DNA of 64,000 bases, taken from Williamsia sp. 1135. GTDB lineage: Bacteria; Actinomycetota; Actinomycetes; Mycobacteriales; Mycobacteriaceae. The DNA is taken from NCBI RefSeq assembly GCF_002095395.1, contig NZ_MJEI01000088.1, positions 1-64,000 of the forward strand, read 5' to 3'. This document shows, piece by piece, positions 3,946-56,807 of the stretch. Under the pieces are notes generated by a model, which saw only the letters and a program-made list of their open reading frames with translations, did no database searches and was not told the origin of the DNA. A program made the position numbers and the translations under genes. Numbering within the stretch: the stretch's first letter is position 1; the number at the start of each line of letters is the position of its first letter.

Positions 3946-4955
3946 CCGGTCACCTTCTCTGCTGTGGTTGCGGACGAGCTCTGGGTGCGTAGGCGGGGGT
4001 CGAGCCAGCCGTACGCTGCGTCGATCAGGGTGTTGACGATGGTGTAGAACGTGGCGGCGATGATGACCACGCCGAGGACCAGAGGCAAGTCCTTGCTGGT
4101 GACCGCGGCGATGGTCAAGCGGCCCAGTCCTTCTCGGGAAAAGACCTGTTCGACCACGACGGCGCCGCTGATCAGGGCGCCGATGATCCAGCCCCACAAC
4201 GTGATCACCGGCATCGCTGCATGCCGGAGCACGTGGCGCAGCAATACTGCGGTCTCCCCGACGCCGCGGGAGCGGGCGGTGACCACGAACGGTTCGTCCA
4301 GGGTTTTCTCGACGCCGTGGCGCAGCACTTGCGAGAGCAGGGCGGCCGGCGCCGCCGCCAGCGCGATGGCGGGCAGCACCAGCGAGGAGACACCTTGCGA
4401 GCCGACCGAGGGGAACCAACCCAGCTCGAAGGAGAAGATGGTGAGCAGCAAGATCCCGAGCCAGAAGGTCGGGACGGCCACGGTCAGCACCTCGAAGGAG
4501 GTGATCGGTCCGCGGATCCACCCGGGGCGGTTCGCGGTGGCCAGGCCGACCACCAGAGCGACCACCAAGGACAGTATTGCGGCGACGATCACCAATTGCA
4601 GTGTCGGCCAGATCTGCCCGCCGATGGCCTCGGTGACCGGCATCCGCAGCGCGTAGGACCGGCCCAGGTCGCCGTGCAGCAGGCGCCACAGATAGTTTCC
4701 GTACTGGGTCAGGATCGGGTCGTCGAGCCTGTAGTCGCTGATGATCTGTGCCCGCACCTCGGGTGAGACCTGGGCGGTCCCGATGATTGAGTTGATCGCC
4801 GAACCCTTACCGGAGTGGATCACGATGAAGGTGGCAGTGATCGCGCCCCACAACACCAGCAGCGATACGGCCAACCGACGGGCGACCGCCCGACCGAGAG
4901 TCCGAGTGCGCGGAATCTCGGTCGGGACAGCCACCGTTTCGATCACGACTGTCAT
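3942..4955 (-). CDS. oligopeptide-type ABC transporter permease (DppB type)
   Basis: A 337-residue permease. It has the N-terminal membrane anchor (RLAVSLLVLWGAITATFIVI), the DppB-type periplasmic segment IISDYRLDDPILTQYGNYLW followed by GDLGRSYALRMPV, and the EAA loop VVTARSRGVGETAVLLRHVL. The ATG at 4955 overlaps the binding-protein stop by four bases (ATGA). It pairs with the DppC-type permease. Confidence 0.93.
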   Translation of the reverse strand: MTVVIETVAVPTEIPRTRTLGRAVARRLAVSLLVLWGAITATFIVIHSGKGSAINSIIGTAQVSPEVRAQIISDYRLDDPILTQYGNYLWRLLHGDLGRSYALRMPVTEAIGGQIWPTLQLVIVAAILSLVVALVVGLATANRPGWIRGPITSFEVLTVAVPTFWLGILLLTIFSFELGWFPSVGSQGVSSLVLPAIALAAAPAALLSQVLRHGVEKTLDEPFVVTARSRGVGETAVLLRHVLRHAAMPVITLWGWIIGALISGAVVVEQVFSREGLGRLTIAAVTSKDLPLVLGVVIIAATFYTIVNTLIDAAYGWLDPRLRTQSSSATTAEKVTG

Positions 4956-6616
4956 TGCGTGACCCAGGCGTCATAGAACGTCGGGAACGCCTGTGGCTCG
5001 AACTTCACACCCTGGACGTTGTTGTTGCGACCCAGAGCGTAGTTGAAGACGTAGACAGGGAAGACCGCGGCGTCGTCGGCGATCTGCTGCTGTGCGCGGC
5101 CGTAGATGGCCGACTGCTTGGCCAGGTCGGTCTCGGCCAGTGCTGCCTTCAGATCGGCGTCGACGGTCGGGTTCGAGTATCGCGCAAGGTTTGTGCCGAA
5201 AGAATCTCTCGGGATGTTGCTCGAGTCCGAGAGCGTGCGGAGGGCATCGGGTGATGCGCGTTGCCAGCTGATGTCGAGTACGTCGTATCCGTTGGTGTAG
5301 AGCGCGGTGTAGTACTCATCGACGGTGATGTTCTTGATCTGGTAATCGGCGCCGAGCTTCTTGGCCGACGATTGCACCTGCTCGAGCAGGGTGTCGCGCT
5401 GTTCGCGGGCGTACTCCTTGAGGTACGGGTGCACGACGGTCAGGCGCTTGCCGTTCTTGGTGCGGTATCCCTCGCTGTCACGTCCGGTCCAGCCGGCTTC
5501 GTCGAGGAGCTGGTTGGCCTTGTCCTCGTCGTAGGTGTAGGCCGACTCGCTGTCCTTGTTGTATCCGACCGTGGCAGGACTGAGGGTGTTCTTCGCGGGC
5601 TGGAAGACACCGAAGTACAGCTTGTCGACGATGGTGTCCCAGTCGATGCCGGCCCGGAAGGCCTCGCGGACCTTGACATCGGAGAACACGCCGGCCTCGG
5701 TGTTGGGGTAGTAGTTGTAGTTGCCGCCGGGTGCCTGGGCGGTGTCGACGGTGAAGCCGGGGGTGTCTTTCAGCTGCGAGACGTTGACCGGTGGCACGCT
5801 GGCGATCGCGTCGACCTGGTTACTGGTCAGCGCGCCGTAGCGGGAGGAGTCCTCGGGGATCTCCTGGATGCTGATCGCCTGCAGATGGGCCTTGCCGGTG
5901 TGGTCGGCATTGCCCGGACCCCAGTTGTAGGCGTCGTTCCGGGTGTATTCGATGCCCTTGTTAGGTGTGTAACCATTCTCGCTGACAAACGGTCCGGAGC
6001 CGATAATTTTGCTGCACAGTGCATCCGGGCTCTGCGTCAGGGTCGAGGGCGCCTCGATACCGAGATAGGCCGTGGCCAGCGACGGCAGGAACGCAGAGTT
6101 CGGCTCGGAGAACGTGACCTCGACGTGTGTCGGGTCGATGACGTTGGTGCCGGTGTAGGTCGCGATGGTGTTGGCGGCGAGCTGTGACTTGGTCGCCGGG
6201 TTGACGATGTGGTCGAGGTTGGCCTTGACCGCGTTGCCGTCGAACTTCTCGCCGTTGGAGAAGGTGACGTCGTCGCGCAGGGTGAACGAATAGGTCAGCT
6301 GGTCGGGGGAGACATTCCACTCAGTTGCCAGCCACGGATCCAGGGTGCCGTCGGCGTTCAGCGCGACGAGCGAGTCCACAATCGGCCGGGTGTAGAAGCC
6401 GGCGATGTCGGCGGGACTCTGATGAGGATCGATGCAACCGCCGGGCCCCGAGGCGCTGGCGAACCGGAGTGTTCCGCCGTCGACGGGATCGCCGGTGGCG
6501 GTGGCGGATTCGCTGCTGTCTCCCGAGCTACAGGCGCTGGCGATGAGTCCGATCGACACGGCAGCGAGGACGGTGGCCTTCGATCGGTGTCTGAAGCGGC
6601 CGGGTGGTCGGGACAT
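4952..6616 (-). CDS. oligopeptide-type ABC transporter substrate-binding lipoprotein (SBP family 5)
   Basis: A 554-residue secreted lipoprotein: basic N-terminus, hydrophobic core and lipobox IASAC with the lipidated Cys at residue 29, followed by a Ser/Thr-rich linker. The mature part matches solute-binding family 5 (LRFASASGPGGCIDPHQSP, FTLRDDVTFSNGEKFDGNAV, VREAFRAGIDWDTIVDKLYF). The ATG at 6616 is preceded by AGGAG six bases upstream. It is the first gene of a five-gene operon whose 5' leader holds a SAM-IV-like riboswitch. Family 5 proteins bind peptides, nickel, opines or other small ligands, so the substrate is open; an N-methylated or sulfur-containing amino acid derivative is inferred from the operon. 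Confidence 0.9.
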   Translation of the reverse strand: MSRPPGRFRHRSKATVLAAVSIGLIASACSSGDSSESATATGDPVDGGTLRFASASGPGGCIDPHQSPADIAGFYTRPIVDSLVALNADGTLDPWLATEWNVSPDQLTYSFTLRDDVTFSNGEKFDGNAVKANLDHIVNPATKSQLAANTIATYTGTNVIDPTHVEVTFSEPNSAFLPSLATAYLGIEAPSTLTQSPDALCSKIIGSGPFVSENGYTPNKGIEYTRNDAYNWGPGNADHTGKAHLQAISIQEIPEDSSRYGALTSNQVDAIASVPPVNVSQLKDTPGFTVDTAQAPGGNYNYYPNTEAGVFSDVKVREAFRAGIDWDTIVDKLYFGVFQPAKNTLSPATVGYNKDSESAYTYDEDKANQLLDEAGWTGRDSEGYRTKNGKRLTVVHPYLKEYAREQRDTLLEQVQSSAKKLGADYQIKNITVDEYYTALYTNGYDVLDISWQRASPDALRTLSDSSNIPRDSFGTNLARYSNPTVDADLKAALAETDLAKQSAIYGRAQQQIADDAAVFPVYVFNYALGRNNNVQGVKFEPQAFPTFYDAWVTQ

Positions 6617-6663
6617 GGGTGTTCTCCTGAGGTGATGGGTGACTGACGCTGGGGCTACAGGAA

Positions 6664-6687
6664 CCGCTCACAAGCAGGCGTGAGCGG
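6664..6687 (-). other. 8-bp perfect hairpin in the leader of the ABC operon
   Basis: CCGCTCAC (6664-6671) and GTGAGCGG (6680-6687) form a perfect stem with an 8-nt loop, about 50 bases before the start codon and about 85 bases after the aptamer. There is no T-run, so it is not a classic intrinsic terminator. It may be part of the expression platform. Confidence 0.4.
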
Positions 6688-6771
6688 CACAGGGTGAGGC
6701 AAACCGACTTCATCGGCCGGGTACGGCTGATCATCGAACTCCCGATATCTCTTCGGGTTCGCATGTGTGAA

Positions 6772-6890
6772 CCCGCGCTTGCTCCATGCCCGTTGCGGAC
6801 TGGAGCCGTGTCTTTTATCCAGGGCACCCCGCCGCGGTGGAGGGTTGCCGACCAGCCAGCTGGAACTTGGCACTGGTACTCGTTGACACA
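6772..6890 (-). promoter_or_regulatory. SAM-IV-type riboswitch (minus strand), leader of the oligopeptide-type ABC operon
   Basis: Read on the minus strand, the core CGGCAACCCTCCACCGCGGC is followed by GGGGTGCCCTGG, as in actinobacterial SAM-IV (SAM-I-superfamily) aptamers. P1 is formed by GTGTC (6885-6889) and GACAC (6808-6812). P2 is ACCAG...CTGGT just before the core. Downstream, CTCCA...TGGAG makes a further stem and the tail ends GCAAGCGCGG, the same tail seen in the second copy at 7090. It lies about 155 bases upstream of the binding-protein start. SAM binding normally lowers expression, so the operon should be on when SAM/methionine is short. Confidence 0.87.
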
Positions 6891-7089
6891 TGGCAGTCGA
6901 AGTCCACCAAAGGGTTTGGAGTCGACCGCCTGAACAGAAGGGTACGCAGACTCGCCACAGAATCAGTAGTTCGTAGGCACTTCGAATCTCGAAGAACTTA
7001 ATCTGGCGCGGAGATGTCACCAGGGTCTAGTGGAGCCGTTCGACGGATGGCACTGGCGGCCGGTGCATCAGTTTGCTAGCATTCGTCTC

Positions 7090-7202
7090 GGTCACGAGTA
7101 TCAGCGCACAGCCCCGGCTTGCTGATCGGCAACCCTCCACCGCGGCGGGGTGCTCCGGGTGATGACCTGGCCGGCTGGAACCCTCAGTCGGCAAGCGCGG
7201 AC
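7090..7202 (+). promoter_or_regulatory. SAM-IV-type riboswitch (plus strand), leader of the class V aminotransferase gene
   Basis: P1 is GGTCA (7090-7094) with TGACC (7163-7167). P2 is ATCAGC (7100-7105) with GCTGAT (7121-7126), enclosing GCCCCGGCTT. The core CGGCAACCCTCCACCGCGGC runs from 7128, followed by GGGGTGCTCCGGGTGATGACC, and the tail ends GCAAGCGCGG (7191-7200). Core and tail are nearly identical to the minus-strand copy 200 bases away. A CGCAGA/TCTGCG stem (7220-7236) follows, 45 bases before the start codon, and may be the switching hairpin. Confidence 0.9.
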
Positions 7203-7281
7203 CCCCTACGTCCGGTAGTCGCAGATCAGTTCTGCGACCCCTGTGCGTTGTGGCGTCCTCTATCTCGCTGGAGGATTGACG

Positions 7282-8493
7282 ATGAGTACCACCACCGAAC
7301 TCGAATGTTCGCTGAAAGCCGTTGCCGAAGTAGAAGGTTCGGACCTGCGAGCACCGCTGGCAGATGGTTCGACCACCCGCTACATCAACTTCGACTACGC
7401 GGCCAGTTCGCCTGCGCTCCGGAGCGCGGTGAGTCGGATCGGCGAGTTGTTGCCCACCTATTCGAGCGTGCACCGGGGCGCCGGATACGCATCTCAGGTC
7501 ACCACACAGGCATACGAAGACGCCCGGGCGGTGGTGACCGAGTTCGTCGGCGCCGCTGATGACCAGTGCCTGGTCTTCACCAGGAACACCACGGATTCGC
7601 TGAACCTGTTGGCCGGCTGCGTACCGGGTCCGGTGGTGGTACTCGACATCGAACACCACTCGAATCTGTTGCCGTGGACAGATTGTCACGTCGTCCAGGC
7701 TGCGAACAGTGTCGAGGAGACCGTCGGACGGGTGGACACAGAACTGCAGCGCACCGGGGCCGCGTTGTTGGCCGTGACAGGCGCGTCCAACGTCACCGGC
7801 GAGATTCTGCCGATCCGAGTACTCGCCGATCTGGCCCATTCACGGGGAGCGCGGATCGTCGTCGACGGTGCTCAACTGGTCCCGCATCGTCGGGTGTCCC
7901 TGGTCGCGGACGGCATCGACTACCTGGCCTTCTCCGGCCACAAGGTCTACGCCCCATTCGGTGCCGGAGTCCTTGTCGGACGACGGGATTGGCTGGACGC
8001 GGCCCCGGCGTATCTCGCCGGCGGTGGAGCGGTGCGCAACGTGACACGCGACGACGTCGAGTGGGCACCGTCGCCTGCTCGGCACGAAGGCGGATCGCCC
8101 AACGTGCTCGGCGCAGCAGCGCTGGCGGCCGCCTGCGAGGAGATCGCGTCGTTGGGAGACGCTGCAGCGCTCCATGAAACGGCACTCACCGAGCAACTGC
8201 GGTGGGGTCTTGCCGCCGTCGACGGTGTCGAGGTGCTGAAGATCTTCCACGACATCTCAGACGCCGTCGGTGTCGTCAGCTTCGTCGTCGAAGGCCATCG
8301 GGCGGTGGATGTGGCGCGGTATCTGTCCACCGAACACGGCATCGGCGTGCGGGACGGCCGGTTCTGCGCGCATCCGCTGCTGGGCCGACTCGGCCACGAC
8401 GGCGGAGCAGTTCGGGCCAGTCTTGGCCTGGGCTCGAGTTCTGCCGATGTCGACGCGTTGCTGTCTGCGCTCGCGCAGTACGTCACCCGCTGA
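7282..8493 (+). CDS. class V aminotransferase-fold PLP enzyme (cysteine desulfurase-like)
   Basis: A 403-residue fold-type I PLP enzyme. The PLP lysine is in AFSGHKVYAPFGAGVLVG and the PLP-phosphate/Asp region in IVVDGAQLVPHR. The C-terminal VRDGRFCAHPLLG carries a Cys where SufS/Csd cysteine desulfurases have their sulfur-accepting Cys, so a role in sulfur transfer or C-S lyase chemistry is likely but not proven. The ATG at 7282 has GGAGG (7270-7274) eight bases upstream; in-frame codons further 5' run into the leader RNA. Expression should be set by the SAM-IV riboswitch at 7090. It is monocistronic, followed by a repeat array and convergent htpG. Confidence 0.85.
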   Translation: MSTTTELECSLKAVAEVEGSDLRAPLADGSTTRYINFDYAASSPALRSAVSRIGELLPTYSSVHRGAGYASQVTTQAYEDARAVVTEFVGAADDQCLVFTRNTTDSLNLLAGCVPGPVVVLDIEHHSNLLPWTDCHVVQAANSVEETVGRVDTELQRTGAALLAVTGASNVTGEILPIRVLADLAHSRGARIVVDGAQLVPHRRVSLVADGIDYLAFSGHKVYAPFGAGVLVGRRDWLDAAPAYLAGGGAVRNVTRDDVEWAPSPARHEGGSPNVLGAAALAAACEEIASLGDAAALHETALTEQLRWGLAAVDGVEVLKIFHDISDAVGVVSFVVEGHRAVDVARYLSTEHGIGVRDGRFCAHPLLGRLGHDGGAVRASLGLGSSSADVDALLSALAQYVTR

Positions 8494-47383: not shown

Positions 47384-48793
47384 TCACTGCACCAGGTAGG
47401 GCGACACCGTGCTCCGGTGTTCGTTGATGTCGAGTTTCGCCCCGAGTGCCGGGAACGCGCGCTGGGGGCAGTTGACCCGTTCGCAGACCCGGCAACCGGC
47501 ACCGATCAGGGTGACGTTTGCCTGCGGTCCGATCTCGAGTCCGTCGGAGTAGACCAGTCGTGCGGCGTGGCGTTGTTCGCAACCGAGCCCGATCGCGAAG
47601 GTCTTGCCGGGCTGGCCATAACGCGCGGCGCGACGCTCGACGGTCCGCGCCACCCATAGGTAGTTCCGTCCGTCGGGCATCTGCGCGATCTGGGTCTGGA
47701 TCTTGCCCGGAGACCCAAAGGTCTCGTAGACATTCCAGAGTGGGCAGGTGCCGCCGCTGTTGGAGAAGTGGAAACCGGTCGCGGACTGGCGCTTCGACAT
47801 GTTTCCCGCCCGGTCGACCCGGACGAAGGTGAACGGAACGCCGCGCAGATTGGGTCGCTGGAGCGTCGACAATCGGTGGCACACCGTCTCATATGAGACC
47901 GCGTAGAAAGCGGACAGACGTTCGATGTCGTAGCGATAATCCTCTGCAGCGCCGTGGAACTGGGCGTAGGGGAGGACAGCGGCGGCAGCGTAGTAGTTGG
48001 CCATGCCGAGCAATGCCAGCGCTCGCGCCTCGTCGGTGGTGAAGTTGCCTTCGTCGGCCATCTGCTTCATCAGGTCGCCGCATTCGAGGTACCCCAATTC
48101 GGCGGCGAGTTTGAACACCCGCTGTCCCTGGGAGAGGTGACCGGAGATCTCCAGGCGCCGGGTCTCCGGGTCGAAGCGGTGCAGCACCGTGTCGCCGAGG
48201 TCGACCCGTCGCACGATCTGGACGCCGTGCACGGTCTGGAGCCGGTCGGCGATCTCGCTGCGGACGTCACCGGAGTGCATACGCATCCGCGTGGTGAGCT
48301 CTTCGGCTGCGGTGTCGAGTTCGTGCAGGTAGTTGTGGCGCTGGTAGAAGTAGTCGCGGACCTCCTCGTGGGGGGCCGAGATGGATCCGCGCATGCTGCC
48401 GTCGCCGCGTTCGTCCGTCGCGGCCGCGAGCTGGTCGGTCGCGTTCCGGTACCGCCGGTGCAGGTTGACCATCGCCTTCGCGAGCTCAGGATGGCTGGCG
48501 ACGAGATCGCTGATCTCTTGCGCGTCAGCGGTGGCGTCGACGTCCTCGTCCATGACCACCTCACGCATCTCGGCGATCAGACGCGCGTTGTCCTGGGAGT
48601 CGAAGAACGTGGTGTCGACACCGAACACCTCGCTGATCTTGAGCAGCACCGGCGCGGACAGCGGGCGGGCGTCGTGCTCGATCTGGTTCAGATACGACGG
48701 CGAGATCTCCAGGGACTGGGCCAACGCCACCTGCGACATACCGCGCTCGGAGCGCAGCTGGCGGAGGCGCCCGCCGACGTAGGTCTTGGACAT
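47384..48793 (-). CDS. ramB: acetate/glyoxylate metabolism regulator RamB (ScfR family)
   Basis: A 469-residue regulator. The N-terminal XRE helix-turn-helix is GMSQVALAQSLEISPSYLNQ; the middle is the DUF955/IrrE-like segment; the C-terminal DUF2083 domain bears the Cys cluster CEQRHAA...CRVCERVNCPQ, which is typical of RamB proteins. In C. glutamicum and M. tuberculosis (Rv0465c), RamB represses acetate and isocitrate lyase genes. Here it is near aceA (about 3.3 kb) and a RamB-box-like site precedes aceA. Monocistronic, convergent with the amino acid transporter. Confidence 0.95.
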   Translation of the reverse strand: MSKTYVGGRLRQLRSERGMSQVALAQSLEISPSYLNQIEHDARPLSAPVLLKISEVFGVDTTFFDSQDNARLIAEMREVVMDEDVDATADAQEISDLVASHPELAKAMVNLHRRYRNATDQLAAATDERGDGSMRGSISAPHEEVRDYFYQRHNYLHELDTAAEELTTRMRMHSGDVRSEIADRLQTVHGVQIVRRVDLGDTVLHRFDPETRRLEISGHLSQGQRVFKLAAELGYLECGDLMKQMADEGNFTTDEARALALLGMANYYAAAAVLPYAQFHGAAEDYRYDIERLSAFYAVSYETVCHRLSTLQRPNLRGVPFTFVRVDRAGNMSKRQSATGFHFSNSGGTCPLWNVYETFGSPGKIQTQIAQMPDGRNYLWVARTVERRAARYGQPGKTFAIGLGCEQRHAARLVYSDGLEIGPQANVTLIGAGCRVCERVNCPQRAFPALGAKLDINEHRSTVSPYLVQ

Positions 48794-51664: not shown

Positions 51665-52097
51665 CGACGCCATCGTCCGTTCGGGCGGCTCGAGGGCCAC
51701 CCGTCGGATTGTCTGATTGTGATCGTGGACACACGGTGCGTCTGTTTCGGGCAGTCGTCCGCTGATGGTCGCCCCCGCGGGGGCTTGGAACAGCCCCTCT
51801 GAGCCGGTCGGCAAACATGCAGTACGCGCGTACTTTTTGCGTACTCGTCAGTAAGAAAATCGAAGTGGTTTTACAGACGAATCTTTGCAAACTTCGCAAC
51901 GGGGCCATGAAAACTAGCCCGAATTCACACTCGCGACGTGTGGACCTGCGGGTTTGTGTGTGGCACCCTCAGTACAGGCACCGCCTAGCCGGAGTGAAGA
52001 AATTGCTAATTCGCACCGATATGGCTCGGCCCCGCTTCAGCACCTCGGGAGCAGGGCGGCCACACAGCACAGGCTCAACGAATATGGAGCGCGAGAT
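51665..52097. promoter_or_regulatory. aceA upstream region with candidate RamB site
   Basis: This 430-base stretch holds the control region of aceA. TTTGCAAACTTCGCAACG (51884-51901) matches the RamB operator pattern (AAACTTTGCAAA and its complement: TTTGCAA half-site plus TTCGCAA), with an A/T-rich stretch before it. AGTACGCGCGTACT (51821-51834) is a perfect 14-bp palindrome followed by TTTTT, probably the end of the lipoprotein transcript or another operator. No convincing gene lies here. Confidence 0.6.
51884..51901 (+). promoter_or_regulatory. putative RamB operator upstream of aceA
   Basis: TTTGCAAACTTCGCAACG contains two overlapping RamB-type half-sites (TTTGCAA, TTCGCAA). The position, about 200 bases before the aceA start codon, fits the regulation of isocitrate lyase by RamB known in M. 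tuberculosis and C. glutamicum. An almost identical 18-mer occurs at 18952-18969 in this window. Confidence 0.6.
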
Positions 52098-53393
52098 ATG
52101 AGCACCGTCGGAAAACCACGTACCGCAGCCGAGATCCAGCAGGATTGGGACACCAACCCCCGCTGGAAGGGCATCACCCGCGACTACAGCGCAGAGTCGG
52201 TCGCCAACCTGCAGGGCAGCGTTGTCGAGGAGCAGACCCTCGCCCGCCGCGGCGCAGAAATCCTCTGGGAGGGCGTCAACGCCGGAGACGGCAGCTACAT
52301 CAACGCACTCGGCGCACTCACCGGTAACCAGGCCGTGCAGCAGGTCCGCGCCGGACTGAAGGCCGTGTACCTCTCCGGCTGGCAGGTCGCCGGCGATGCG
52401 AACCTCTCGGGCCACACCTACCCGGACCAGTCGCTGTACCCCGCGAACTCCGTTCCTTCGGTGGTCCGTCGCATCAACAACGCGCTCCTGCGCGCCGACG
52501 AGATCGCCCGCGTCGAGGGTGACGACACCGTCGACAACTGGGTTGTGCCGATCGTGGCCGACGGCGAAGCCGGCTTCGGTGGCGCCCTGAACGTCTACGA
52601 ACTGCAGAAGGCCATGATCGCAGCCGGTGCCGCAGGCACCCACTGGGAAGATCAGCTCGCCTCGGAGAAGAAGTGCGGCCACCTCGGTGGCAAGGTGCTC
52701 ATCCCCACCCAGCAGCACATCCGCACCCTGAGCTCGGCTCGCCTGGCCGCCGACGTCGCAAACGTGCCGACCGTCGTCATCGCCCGTACCGACGCCGAAG
52801 CCGCCACCCTGATCACCTCCGACGTCGACGACCGTGACAAGCAGTTCGTCACCGGCGAGCGCACCGCCGAGGGCTACTACCACGTGAAGAACGGCATCGA
52901 GCCCTGCATCGCTCGCGCCAAGTCCTACGCGCCGTACGCCGACATGATCTGGATGGAGACCGGCACCCCCGATCTCGAGCTGGCCCGCAAGTTCGCCGAG
53001 GCCGTCAAGAGCGAGTTCCCCGACCAGCTGCTCTCGTACAACTGCAGCCCGTCGTTCAACTGGAGCAAGCACCTCGATGATTCCACCATCGCCAAGTTCC
53101 AGAACGAGCTCGGCGCAATGGGATTCACCTTCCAGTTCATCACCCTGGCCGGCTTCCACTCACTCAACTACGGCATGTTCGACCTTGCTTGGGGCTACGC
53201 CCGCGAGCAGATGACGGCATTCGTCGACCTGCAGAACCGCGAGTTCAAGGCAGCCGACGAGCGCGGCTTCACCGCCGTCAAGCACCAGCGTGAGGTCGGC
53301 GCAGGCTACTTCGACAACATCGCCACCACGGTCGACCCGACCAGCAGCACCACGTCGCTGGCCGGTTCCACCGAAGAGGGCCAATTCCACTAA
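52098..53393 (+). CDS. aceA: isocitrate lyase
   Basis: A 431-residue cytoplasmic enzyme that splits isocitrate to succinate and glyoxylate, the first step of the glyoxylate bypass for growth on acetate and fatty acids. The catalytic [10 protein letters not shown] loop (Cys at about residue 193), the metal site region [20 protein letters not shown], and [14 protein letters not shown] are intact. Length matches mycobacterial Icl1. ATG 52098 with GGAG upstream; a longer frame from 51954 lacks conservation. The upstream region carries a RamB-like site, and fadB2 follows after 203 bases. Confidence 0.97.
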
Positions 53394-53461: not shown

Positions 53462-53596
53462 GCTGGTATCCGGGTGAACTCTGGGCGTACCCCACAAGGG
53501 TTACCCTCTTCATCACCTTTTCGTGTTGGTCACTCTTAGTTCAGAGATTCTCTTCTTTGTTCAAAGATGTTGTGCTCGTTGTTTTTAGGAGCTTTT

Positions 53597-54490
53597 GTGA
53601 GCGAGAAGATTTCACGGGTCGGCATAATCGGTGCCGGTCAGATGGGCGCAGGCATTGCCGAAGTCTGTGCCCGGGCGCACGCCGACGTGTTGGTGTACGA
53701 GACGACCCGTGAGTTGGCAGCCGCTGGACGGTCCCGCATCCTGCGCTCCCTCGATCGCGGTGTGAGTAGCGGAAAACTCACCGAACGTGAGCGGGAACAG
53801 GCATCGTGGCGGCTGCGTTTCACCTCCGATCTGGGCGATTTCGCTGACCGGCAGATGGTGTGTGAGGCGGTGGTCGAAGACGAGGCCGTCAAGACCGAGA
53901 TCTTCAAACAGCTCGACAAGGTGGTCACGGACCCCAATGCCGTGCTTGCTTCCAACACGTCTTCGATCCCGATCATGAAGTTGGGCATGGCAACCGCCAA
54001 CGCTCATCGCGTCGTCGGTATGCACTTCTTCAACCCGGTGCCGGTACTGCCGCTCGTTGAATTGGTCACCACGCTGATGACCTCCGACGACGTCACCACG
54101 CGCGCCGAGGCCTTCGCCCGCGACATCCTCGGCAAGCAGGTCGTCCGATCGTCGGACCGCTCCGGATTCGTCGTCAACGCTTTGCTGGTGCCCTACCTTC
54201 TCTCGGCGATCCGCATGGTGGAGAGCGGTTTTGCCACCGTCGAAGACATCGACAAGGCGATGGTGCTCGGTTGCGCGCACCCCATGGGCCCGCTCAAGCT
54301 CAGCGACCTCGTCGGCCTCGACACCGTGAAGGCGATCGCCGACAAGATGTACGAAGAGTTCAAAGAACCGCTCTACTCTCCGCCGCCCCTACTGCTGCGC
54401 ATGGTCGAGGCCGGTCGGCTGGGCAAGAAAGCCGGACACGGTTTCTACGTGTACGCGGACAGCCCGGCGAAGACCGGCGCAGGAAGATAA
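53597..54490 (+). CDS. fadB2: 3-hydroxybutyryl-CoA dehydrogenase
   Basis: A 297-residue NAD-dependent enzyme converting 3-hydroxyacyl-CoA to 3-ketoacyl-CoA. The NAD fold is RVGIIGAGQMGAGIAEVCAR; the catalytic Ser and His regions are SNTSSIPIMKLG and MHFFNPVPVLPLVELV; the C-terminal helix is GRLGKKAGHGFYVY. The GTG start at 53597 has AGGAGC upstream; the gene starts 203 bases after aceA. The orthologue in M. tuberculosis is Rv0468, directly after icl. The next gene begins 13 bases after its stop. Confidence 0.93.
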   Translation: MSEKISRVGIIGAGQMGAGIAEVCARAHADVLVYETTRELAAAGRSRILRSLDRGVSSGKLTEREREQASWRLRFTSDLGDFADRQMVCEAVVEDEAVKTEIFKQLDKVVTDPNAVLASNTSSIPIMKLGMATANAHRVVGMHFFNPVPVLPLVELVTTLMTSDDVTTRAEAFARDILGKQVVRSSDRSGFVVNALLVPYLLSAIRMVESGFATVEDIDKAMVLGCAHPMGPLKLSDLVGLDTVKAIADKMYEEFKEPLYSPPPLLLRMVEAGRLGKKAGHGFYVYADSPAKTGAGR

Positions 54491-54503: not shown

Positions 54504-56807
54504 ATGACCGGCCAGGAGGAGACGATCGAATACGGGTCCTCGATCCTGGGGTATCCGCGCATCGGCGCCCGGCGAGAACTCAAGCGCGCGCTCGAAAAGT
54601 ACTGGCATCTCGGTGGTTCGGTGGGCGATCTGATCGCCGTCGGGCGGCACCTGCAGGACGACATGTGGCAGGAACTCGCCGCGACAGGACTCGAACAGGT
54701 GCCGGGCAACACCTTCTCGTTCTACGATCACGTACTCGACAACGCGCTGATGTTCGCTGCTCTACCGAGGCGATTTGCGGCGCTCGAGCCCGAACTCCAC
54801 CCGTTGGACTTCTACTTCATGTTGGCACGCGGGAAGGCCGACTTTCCGCCCCTGGAGTTGGTGAAGTTCTTCGGCACCAACTATCACTACCGGCAGCCCG
54901 AGATCGACCCGGATACCACCTTCTCGCTGCACGCCGAATCGTTGCTGGCCGAGCACGCCCGGGCCAAGCAACAGGGCATCGAGTTGCGGCCGGTGGTCAT
55001 CGGCCCGATCTCACTCCTGCTGCTGTCGGCGGCTGCACCTGGTGCGCCCGAAGGCTTCTCGCCGATCGACAAGATCGATGAGCTCATCCCCGCGTATCTG
55101 CACCTGTTCAAGGAACTCGCTGCGCAGGGTGCCAAGTGCGTCCAACTCGACGAACCGGCTTTCACCAGCGACCGGACCGACGAGGAACTGGCGCTGCTCG
55201 GGACCGTCTATGACTCGCTGGCCGCCGTCAGTCAGCGCCCGCGTCTACTCGTCACCGGCCAGTACGGCGATCTCGGTGCGGCGCTTCCGATTCTGGCCGG
55301 AACAAAGATCGAGGCGATCGGTCTGGACCTGGTATCCGAGCCGATCAGCGCGGCGGGTCTGGCGAAGATCCCTGGACTCGATCGCAAGCGTCTGTACGCG
55401 GGTGTCATCAACGGACGCAACGTGTGGAAGGCCGACAAGGCGCGCACGCTCGACTATCTGCTCGCCATCAAGGCCGTCATCCCGGATGTGGTCGTGTCGA
55501 CGTCTTGCAGCCTGCTCCACGTACCGGTGGACCTACTCGTCGAATACGACATCCCGGGCGACGTCGCTGACAGGCTCGCGTTCGCCAAGCAGAAGGTCGG
55601 CGAGGTCGTGGCGCTCGCGAAAGCCGTCACCCACGGGGCCCCCGAACACTGGTCGGATCGCCCCAAGTCGGTGCACTTCAAGATGAAGCACGATGTGCGT
55701 CAACGTGTCTCCGCGATCCGTCCGGATCAGCGGGAGCGGGCACCGTACGAGGTCAGGCGCAAGGCGCAACAGCAGGCTCTGGGGCTGCCGCTGGTGCCGA
55801 CCTGCACGCTGGGGTCGTTTCCGCAGACCGCGGAGATCCGCCAGGCCCGGTACGAGTACGGTCAAGGCCGCTTGACCTGGGACGAGTACCGGCACCTGTT
55901 GCTCGACGAGATCAAACGCGTGATCGACCTGCAGGAAGACATCGGACTCGACGTCTTGGTGCACGGTGAGGTCGAGCGCAATGACATGATCGAGTACTTC
56001 GCCGAGCTGATGGACGGTTACGCCACAACGCATTTCGGCTGGGTTCAGGTGTACGGATCACGGTGCGTGCGGCCGCCGATCCTGTACGGCGACATCAAGC
56101 GCCAAGGTCCGATGACCGTCGAGTGGATCACTTACGCGCAGTCGTTGACCGACAAGCCGGTGAAGGGCATCCTGACCGGCCCGGTGACCATGTTGGCGAG
56201 ATCCTTCGTCCGCCAGGATCAGCCGTTGTACGAGACCGCTGAACAACTGGCGTTGGCGGTTCGCGACGAGGTCGCCGATCTGGAGAGGGCAGGCATCCGG
56301 ATCATCCAGGTCGATGAGCCGTCCATCCGGGAACTGCTGCCACTACGCGAACGGGGCCGGGTCGGGTTCCTCGACTGGGCGGTCAACGCGTTCAAGCTCG
56401 CCGTGGGCGGGGCCGAAGCCCAGACGCAGATCCATGCACACATCGGGTACTCGAGCATCGCGTCGGTGGTCGAGGCATTCGACGCCCTCGATGCCGACGT
56501 GACATCGATCGTGGCGACCCGCTCCATCGGCTGGGTCCTCGATCAGATCACGAGTTCGGGAACAGCGATCAAGCGCGAGGTCGGGCCGGGGGTATACGAG
56601 AGTCGTAGTGCGGCGATTCCTGACATCGACGAGATCGATGAGCGCATCCAGCGTGCCGCCGCCGCGATCGATTCGGATCGGCTGTGGGTCAATCCGGATG
56701 GCGGCCTCAAGACCAGGCACTACTGGCAGCTCGAGCCGTCGCTGCGCAACATGGTCGCTGCCGCGCGACGGCAGCGACGTCGGATCGATGCCCGCCCGCC
56801 CAGCTGA
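54504..56807 (+). CDS. MetE-like protein lacking zinc ligands (cobalamin-independent methionine synthase homologue)
   Basis: A 767-residue two-domain protein aligned to MetE over its whole length: N-terminal ILGYPRIGARRELKRALEKY, C-terminal LGSFPQTAEIRQARYEYGQG, VLVHGEVERNDMIEYFAELM, VQVYGSRCVRPPILYGDIKR, IIQVDEPSIRELLPL. In E. coli MetE zinc is held by His641, Cys643, Glu665 and Cys726. Here the matching residues are His646, Gly648, Val670 and Gly733, so three of four are lost while the catalytic Asp (QVDEP) and the surrounding motifs remain. It begins 13 bases after fadB2. Methionine synthase activity by the known mechanism is unlikely; a new role is possible. Confidence 0.9.
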   Translation: MTGQEETIEYGSSILGYPRIGARRELKRALEKYWHLGGSVGDLIAVGRHLQDDMWQELAATGLEQVPGNTFSFYDHVLDNALMFAALPRRFAALEPELHPLDFYFMLARGKADFPPLELVKFFGTNYHYRQPEIDPDTTFSLHAESLLAEHARAKQQGIELRPVVIGPISLLLLSAAAPGAPEGFSPIDKIDELIPAYLHLFKELAAQGAKCVQLDEPAFTSDRTDEELALLGTVYDSLAAVSQRPRLLVTGQYGDLGAALPILAGTKIEAIGLDLVSEPISAAGLAKIPGLDRKRLYAGVINGRNVWKADKARTLDYLLAIKAVIPDVVVSTSCSLLHVPVDLLVEYDIPGDVADRLAFAKQKVGEVVALAKAVTHGAPEHWSDRPKSVHFKMKHDVRQRVSAIRPDQRERAPYEVRRKAQQQALGLPLVPTCTLGSFPQTAEIRQARYEYGQGRLTWDEYRHLLLDEIKRVIDLQEDIGLDVLVHGEVERNDMIEYFAELMDGYATTHFGWVQVYGSRCVRPPILYGDIKRQGPMTVEWITYAQSLTDKPVKGILTGPVTMLARSFVRQDQPLYETAEQLALAVRDEVADLERAGIRIIQVDEPSIRELLPLRERGRVGFLDWAVNAFKLAVGGAEAQTQIHAHIGYSSIASVVEAFDALDADVTSIVATRSIGWVLDQITSSGTAIKREVGPGVYESRSAAIPDIDEIDERIQRAAAAIDSDRLWVNPDGGLKTRHYWQLEPSLRNMVAAARRQRRRIDARPPS

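Follow-up and report, generated by a model that had tools for sequence, protein, structure and literature searches.

What does a full-length MetE homologue do once the MetE zinc site has been lost from it, and why does it stand beside genes of acetate metabolism? The question is raised by a gene in a 64,000-nucleotide stretch of DNA from Williamsia sp. 1135 (contig NZ_MJEI01000088.1, positions 1 to 64,000 of the forward strand, called the window here; source genome 5.98 Mb). The gene, for which we use the name metEx, opens with an ATG 13 bases past the stop codon of fadB2 at 54490, as the original prediction had noted, and aceA precedes fadB2. That prediction took the product for a MetE subfamily outside methionine synthesis by the known mechanism, perhaps linked to C2 or short-chain acyl metabolism, and the computable checks described below support it. 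The best explanation, to which we give slightly less than an even chance, is that metEx is a paralogue of MetE that has lost the zinc site of that enzyme and works in C2/glyoxylate-shunt metabolism, not as a methionine synthase. More tentative is a fuller version, namely, that the whole subfamily has become an enzyme that works without metal in C2/glyoxylate-shunt metabolism, in which the homocysteine grip would serve a new amino-acid-like substrate and Arg701 and Arg566 would replace zinc and pterin, and that this enzyme, strongly induced in ethanol-exposed Rhodococcus, was misread there as methionine synthase.

MetEx resembles MetE over its full length. Both MetE domains are matched (PF08267 with 338.8 bits and PF01717 with 399.3 bits; Pfam), and the sequences LGSFPQT, GEVERNDM and QVDEP are present as had been claimed. 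The TIGR01371 score is 867.8, under the cut-off of 929.95. A structure model made with 34 clade sequences is of modest quality (mean predicted local distance difference test score, pLDDT, 71.3; predicted template modelling score, pTM, 0.58), and with it the first 29 rows of a Foldseek search were full-length MetE structures. The closest named orthologues, at 78-95% identity, are from Williamsia.

The zinc columns were read from an alignment to solved MetEs and E. coli MetE, which also provided the numbering of the sites. They hold His646, Gly648, Val670 and Gly733, exactly as first proposed, and of the four zinc ligands metEx retains His646 only. Residue counts compare 64 distinct clade sequences (79 retrieved) with 67 canonical MetEs, the excluded rows being 15 of the 79 that duplicate another row over residues 41-700, L011-L013 (from the genomes of L018-L020), and the frame-shifted canonical MetE of the source genome. 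Sorting into clade and canonical sequences was by identity and originating search, and L119-L121 were sorted only after their ligands had been inspected. H641 is retained in 64/64 clade and 67/67 canonical sequences. C643, E665 and C726 are each retained in 67/67 canonical sequences and in 0/64 of the clade, where the C643 position is occupied by G (25), T (17), A (12), N (4), P (2), S (2) or E (2). Chance is ruled out for the loss because all three ligands are missing from 64/64 distinct orthologues and from 0/67 canonical MetEs.

The original prediction held that all other marks of MetE are kept, which proved wrong. His694, whose counterpart is a candidate proton donor in the account of MetE that we drew on in part (PMC539065), is retained in 1/64 clade sequences and in 66/67 canonical ones (one canonical row is gapped there); its place in metEx is taken by Arg701. 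W561, retained in 67/67 canonical and 0/64 clade sequences, is replaced by Arg, Phe, Leu or Gly. E672 has become Trp (Trp677 in metEx) in 64/64 clade sequences, and E735 corresponds to Gln742. The new residues of the catalytic centre are nearly invariant in the clade (R701 in 62/64; W677, Q742 and E699 in 64/64 each). The disabled site of the N-terminal barrel is altered as well: F/Y at 167 is now L (63) or F (1), 242 is mostly G (63), Y at 243 is Q, P or E, F at 244 is Y (64), and 205 is C (64).

What has been kept includes the residues that, in MetE, hold the amino and carboxyl groups of homocysteine. S433, E484, M490 and D599, whose counterparts take part in homocysteine binding in the T. 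maritima enzyme (PMC539065), are present in 64/64 clade sequences, and so are the folate-tail residues R17, R515 and R523 (window numbering), with K20 in 63/64. Under the best explanation metEx would bind an alpha-amino-acid-like ligand, with Arg701 and His646 where zinc and the activated thiolate stood. On the pterin side, E605 is kept in 56/64 clade sequences and K117 is still Lys in 24/64. The strongest covariation of R566 among all columns is with E610 (RE 56, FT 4, LT 3, GQ 1); the pair probably sits in the pterin pocket, where it would block the usual pterin position. As the most likely mechanism, metEx would be an enzyme whose substrate is a small amino acid or an amino-dicarboxylate with a link to the glyoxylate shunt, and it would work, probably without metal, when cells grow on acetate, ethanol or fatty acids. 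By analogy with UroD, an Arg replacing the metal may hold an anionic group.

The proposal that the ligand pattern defines a clade was borne out. In a quick tree of 35 vs 27 rows, which contains two long canonical outgroup branches (a warning on that tree), the zinc-less sequences are one side of a single branch with a Shimodaira-Hasegawa-like approximate likelihood ratio test (SH-aLRT) support of 100 and a stem of 0.81 changes per column. The same split was obtained without the long-branch rows (18 vs 18) from the whole protein, the N-terminal half alone and the C-terminal half alone. Most simply, the zinc site would have been lost once, in the clade ancestor. The clade is under purifying selection, the ratio of nonsynonymous to synonymous substitution rates (dN/dS) being 0.032-0.172 in the 11 measurable pairs of 12 (0.053-0.125 in four canonical pairs). 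Matches to metEx occur in 183/401 sampled genomes of the family in the Genome Taxonomy Database (GTDB) and in 24/31 genera, at a threshold set so that clade members and canonical MetEs of the family fall on opposite sides, with two candidates scored per genome. The named genera are Williamsia, Rhodococcus, Nocardia, Hoyosella, Lolliginicoccus, Smaragdicoccus and Jongsikchunia, with one Gordonia. Over a similar threshold an order-wide sample yielded 12/298 genomes, of which 9 belong to this family and the remaining 3 are canonical. Sequences from a different family with 52-54% identity (G540, G520, G509) turned out canonical on inspection and were moved to the canonical rows.

Full-length frames and the dN/dS values rule out a pseudogene, in agreement with the original prediction. 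They bear also on the idea that metEx is a relaxed remnant of a duplicated metE heading for loss, to which its absence from some sister genomes might point. The selection data largely refute that idea, and the breadth of genera with matches and the one fixed set of new residues across 64 sequences leave it practically no probability.

The alignment establishes the absence of the MetE zinc site from the clade, and from it we infer that metEx is metal-free. On whether other residues might restore a zinc site, a point raised in the original prediction, the outcome is mixed: the original three ligands are gone throughout, and Asp707 and His739 are conserved gains that are candidate ligands. Further clade-specific potential ligands are Cys212 (64/64), His35 (58/64) and acids at 52, 160 and 356. 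With Asp707, His739 and Cys212 conserved, a different metal site is possible, and the first two gains lower the probability of the best explanation and of the metal-free enzyme. A metalloenzyme whose site has moved, for example to His644/His646 with Asp707 and His739, would catalyze a non-MetE reaction. His644 and His646 are invariant (64/64), and the two gains are specific to the clade and placed in the H694 and C726 loops. However, Asp707 is Ser in 1/64 and His739 is Tyr or Gln in 5/64, the positions come from sequence only and the loop model is poor, and such a metalloenzyme appears improbable.

Methionine synthesis in the hosts has other candidates. A second, canonical metE or a metH had been suggested as a check, and both were found in the source genome. 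Its canonical metE lies on another contig (C35, L007 ~6390-8330) and keeps every zinc ligand, with a cobalamin riboswitch at the locus; it is split into two frames in the assembly, which may be a sequencing error or a real loss. MetH is present in 40/40 metEx genomes that showed one MetE-like match, picked from a search scoring at most three MetE candidates per genome, and metEx as the host's only methionine synthase was rejected on that count. A cobalamin riboswitch was found at 23/25 distinct canonical metE loci scanned and at none of the 14 metEx loci scanned. It could still be that metEx is a methionine synthase, with a different metal site or a chemistry that needs no metal, since the homocysteine and folate-tail residues are kept and the NF003556 equivalog is matched. 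This is very improbable, given that 64/64 sequences lack three of the zinc ligands as well as the pterin Trp and 63/64 lack the acid His, that MetH is there in every checked genome without a second MetE match, that the scanned metEx loci are free of the cobalamin (B12) riboswitch, and that the gene is linked to aceA-fadB2. According to the preferred explanation metEx would not be a methionine synthase, and MetH and, where present, riboswitch-controlled MetE would fill that job. As a separate observation, the only canonical metE loci of the 25 without the riboswitch are L144 and L145 (G015 and G044), and the metEx of these same genomes (L103 and L102) has Glu at the C643 position.

The gene order aceA>fadB2>metEx on one strand is found in 61/64 clade loci (a set that counts a few genomes twice), which agrees with the suggestion that the clade keeps its fadB2 neighbour. 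Two of the exceptions, L031 (where fadB2 is seen) and L034, end at a contig edge. In the flanks of 50 canonical metE loci, 1.5 to ~6 kb per side, neither aceA nor fadB2 was matched (E < 1e-30). Co-transcription of fadB2 and metEx is likely in the source genome and is not general across the clade. TTTGCAA-type motifs, which resemble the RamB consensus, were seen upstream of aceA at 14/31 named loci. The 31 gaps between fadB2 and metEx that were examined contain none, and a RamB site is thus not a general feature.

Evidence on growth conditions comes from Rhodococcus qingshengii IGTS8, in which the level of a 'MetE', IGTS8_peg5907, in cultures on dibenzothiophene exceeds that in sulfate cultures 190-273-fold; with 2 Cys and 7 Met, the protein is low in both residues (PMC8557817). 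The identity of peg5907 was approached through genomes of genus g23, taken for Rhodococcus because the MetE of G030 is 98% identical to that of R. opacus. Canonical MetE in nine of them (G087, G123, G100, G154, G164, G212, G244, G258, G184) contains 4-5 Cys and 8 Met. For metEx, the same nine and G221 give 1-2 Cys and 7-10 Met, and the proteins of G184 and G258 match the 2 and 7 of peg5907 exactly. In IGTS8, a sulfatase-TauD-ROK trio (peg5938-5940) is 31-33 genes and MshA (peg5948) 41 genes away from peg5907 (PMC8557817). In the g23 genomes, mshA is 35-38 kb from metEx in 7/7 searched, and G087, the single genome mapped at the level of individual genes, has the trio between the two in the right order. 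The gene counts there, from a simple gene caller, are 6 between ROK and mshA (7 in the paper) and 23 between sulfatase and metEx (30 in the paper). Canonical metE is 0.65, 3.3 and 3.7 Mb from metEx in three genomes with both on one contig. The gene order in relatives and the Cys/Met count make peg5907 very probably metEx.

How, then, is the rise of peg5907 to be explained? Dibenzothiophene, dissolved at 100 mM in ethanol, was given at a final 0.5 mM, the medium included cyanocobalamin, and the sulfur source was the sole variable per the authors, with no ethanol mentioned for the sulfate cultures in the sections concerned (PMC8557817). From the stock dilution, the dibenzothiophene cultures are computed to have received 0.5% v/v ethanol, or ~86 mM. 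The cyanocobalamin should hold a riboswitch-controlled metE low, and ethanol induction of peg5907 together with aceA is at least as likely a cause as sulfur starvation. A role of metEx in sulfur-limited growth, and not in C2 metabolism, would fit the fold change and the low Cys and Met content. Against it stand the ethanol that came with dibenzothiophene and the constant gene neighbours of metEx, which are acetate genes, and we give this role little probability. A further article mentions MetE/MetH in general terms only, so far as the part concerned goes (PMC9426449).

Another reading is a pseudoenzyme serving as regulator or sensor, that is, a MetE without catalysis that would bind an amino acid (methionine, homocysteine or some other) and thereby tune a partner in C2 growth, for instance isocitrate lyase, MetH or a regulator. 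Loss of the metal ligands, acid His and pterin Trp with the amino-acid grip left in place is what it would predict, and purifying selection is consistent with it, as is the single match shown by each genome among those listed. The near-invariant new residues at 701, 677, 742 and 699 fit a new activity better, and the full double barrel and basic groove are kept. We regard the pseudoenzyme as unlikely, though far from negligible. An enzyme is tentatively preferred for metEx over a relocated-metal enzyme or a regulator.

Several points weigh against a metal-free enzyme of C2 metabolism. A dead regulatory pseudoenzyme would give a similar picture. Asp707 and His739 each lie six residues beyond the lost H694 and C726, in the same loops, the invariant Cys212 is a potential ligand, and the active-site loops of the model have pLDDT <50. 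Two of the 64 clade sequences have Glu at the C643 position, and one keeps His694. The NF003556 (MetE) score is 931.8 bits, above the cut-off of 541 (NCBIfam). As to the neighbourhood, an esterase-like gene replaces fadB2 upstream of metEx at the third exceptional locus (L100), and the fadB2-metEx gap grows to ~400 bases in some Nocardia. Moreover, aceA adjoins fadB2 without metEx in 10/10 family genomes mapped (12 metEx-less genomes were queried for fadB2; G024 had no match at 1e-80 and G018 was left out), which shows metEx to be dispensable and makes it accessory to the shunt. Finally, peg5907 was mapped through related genomes only, and its rise may reflect sulfur starvation.

The features discussed are collected below.

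Table. Positions in the window of metEx, of its altered and retained sites, and of neighbouring features
Feature	Position	Strand	Remarks
metEx, zinc-less MetE paralogue, 767 aa	54504..56807	+	Meth_synt_1 + Meth_synt_2 barrels
Ser438 (= homocysteine-binding S433)	55815..55817	+	kept in 64/64
Glu489 (= homocysteine-binding E484)	55968..55970	+	kept in 64/64
Arg566 (= pterin-stacking W561), covarying with Glu610	56199..56201	+	alignment
Asp604 (= homocysteine-binding D599)	56313..56315	+	kept in 64/64
Glu610 (= pterin-binding E605)	56331..56333	+	alignment
His646 (= E. coli H641, kept) to Gly648 (= zinc ligand C643, lost), codons	56439..56447	+	alignment
Val670 (= zinc ligand E665, lost)	56511..56513	+	V 60, I 4 of 64
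Arg701 (= candidate proton donor H694)	56604..56606	+	R 62, H 1, K 1 of 64
Asp707, conserved gain	56622..56624	+	D or E in 63/64; 1/67 canonical
Gly733 (= zinc ligand C726, lost)	56700..56702	+	G 63, F 1 of 64
His739, conserved gain	56718..56720	+	59/64; 0/67 canonical
fadB2, 3-hydroxybutyryl-CoA dehydrogenase	53567..54490	+	NCBIfam; open reading frame as listed, true start may lie further in
aceA, isocitrate lyase	52098..53393	+	NCBIfam; open reading frame opens at 51954, start 52098 chosen from homologues
TTTGCAAA-type motif pair upstream of aceA, resembling a RamB box	51879..51896	.	putative; consensus presumed
ramB, regulator of acetate metabolism	47384..48793	-	NF038139, 851.8 bits, cut-off 700

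Five metEx-less Williamsia share the ramB, lipoprotein, SDR, TetR and DUF445 genes with the window; these genomes (L182-L186; G001, G008, G006, G003, G004) gave no MetE-like match, neither metEx nor canonical metE. At another metEx-less locus (L191, G036), a mycolic-acid/cyclopropane methyltransferase-like gene, judged from its first residues only, follows aceA-fadB2 in the place of metEx. No gene downstream of metEx is common to all genera in the clade loci. In many Rhodococcus and Smaragdicoccus loci, L125-L131, L029, L050, L037, L038 and L117 among them, a gene that by eye is alcohol dehydrogenase-like comes directly after metEx on the same strand. Elsewhere in the window there is a divergent pair of SAM-IV riboswitches, at 6770-6888 (-) and 7090-7203 (+), with 85.9 and 110.2 bits. 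Judged by eye, one precedes an ABC solute-binding lipoprotein-like gene (4952-6616, -) and the other a class-V aminotransferase/cysteine-desulfurase-like gene (7243-8493, +).

The consequences are practical as well as evolutionary. Nearly half of the sampled family genomes (183/401) carry a 'MetE' unable to act as MetE by the known mechanism, and pathway reconstructions counting metEx as methionine synthase would be wrong. The claim that biodesulfurization boosts B12-independent methionine synthesis in IGTS8 (PMC8557817, in the passages considered) probably rests on metEx in ethanol-receiving cultures. If metEx is an enzyme, it would add an unassigned step beside the glyoxylate shunt and plainly exemplify how a zinc enzyme can be refitted for other chemistry.

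How does metEx compare with known systems? With MetE (TIGR01371/NF003556; PF08267 + PF01717; structures 1t7l and 1u1h) it shares the full length and double barrel, ~47-54% identity to the actinobacterial enzymes, and the residues for the homocysteine carboxyl and amino groups and for the folate tail. Unlike MetE, it is without C643, E665 and C726, has Arg for H694 and Arg, Phe, Leu or Gly for W561, has an altered N-terminal pseudo-site and the aceA-fadB2 linkage, and shows no cobalamin riboswitch at the loci scanned. UroD is metal-free and binds its substrate through Arg. The metEx model has a weak barrel similarity to it (11-15% identity in Foldseek), with no Pfam match to metEx at 1e-5; however, UroD is a single barrel, and the link would be an analogy of logic only. 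IGTS8_peg5907 resembles metEx as an apparent orthologue, by relatives' gene order and Cys/Met count; the difference is that it was published as a methionine synthase, with no mention of zinc-site loss in the parts of the paper at hand (PMC8557817). No description of a zinc-less or aceA-linked MetE was recognised in the open-access literature searched. The nearest precedent is the MesB-like proteins of Chloroflexales, MetE-superfamily members in which, as in metEx, zinc ligands are replaced and for which the authors propose another function, as far as the consulted part of that work extends (PMC7857596). They are kin of the single-barrel MesB, with other replacements (FSHG, YCDQ, YREQ) and in other bacteria, whereas metEx is a full-length double barrel.

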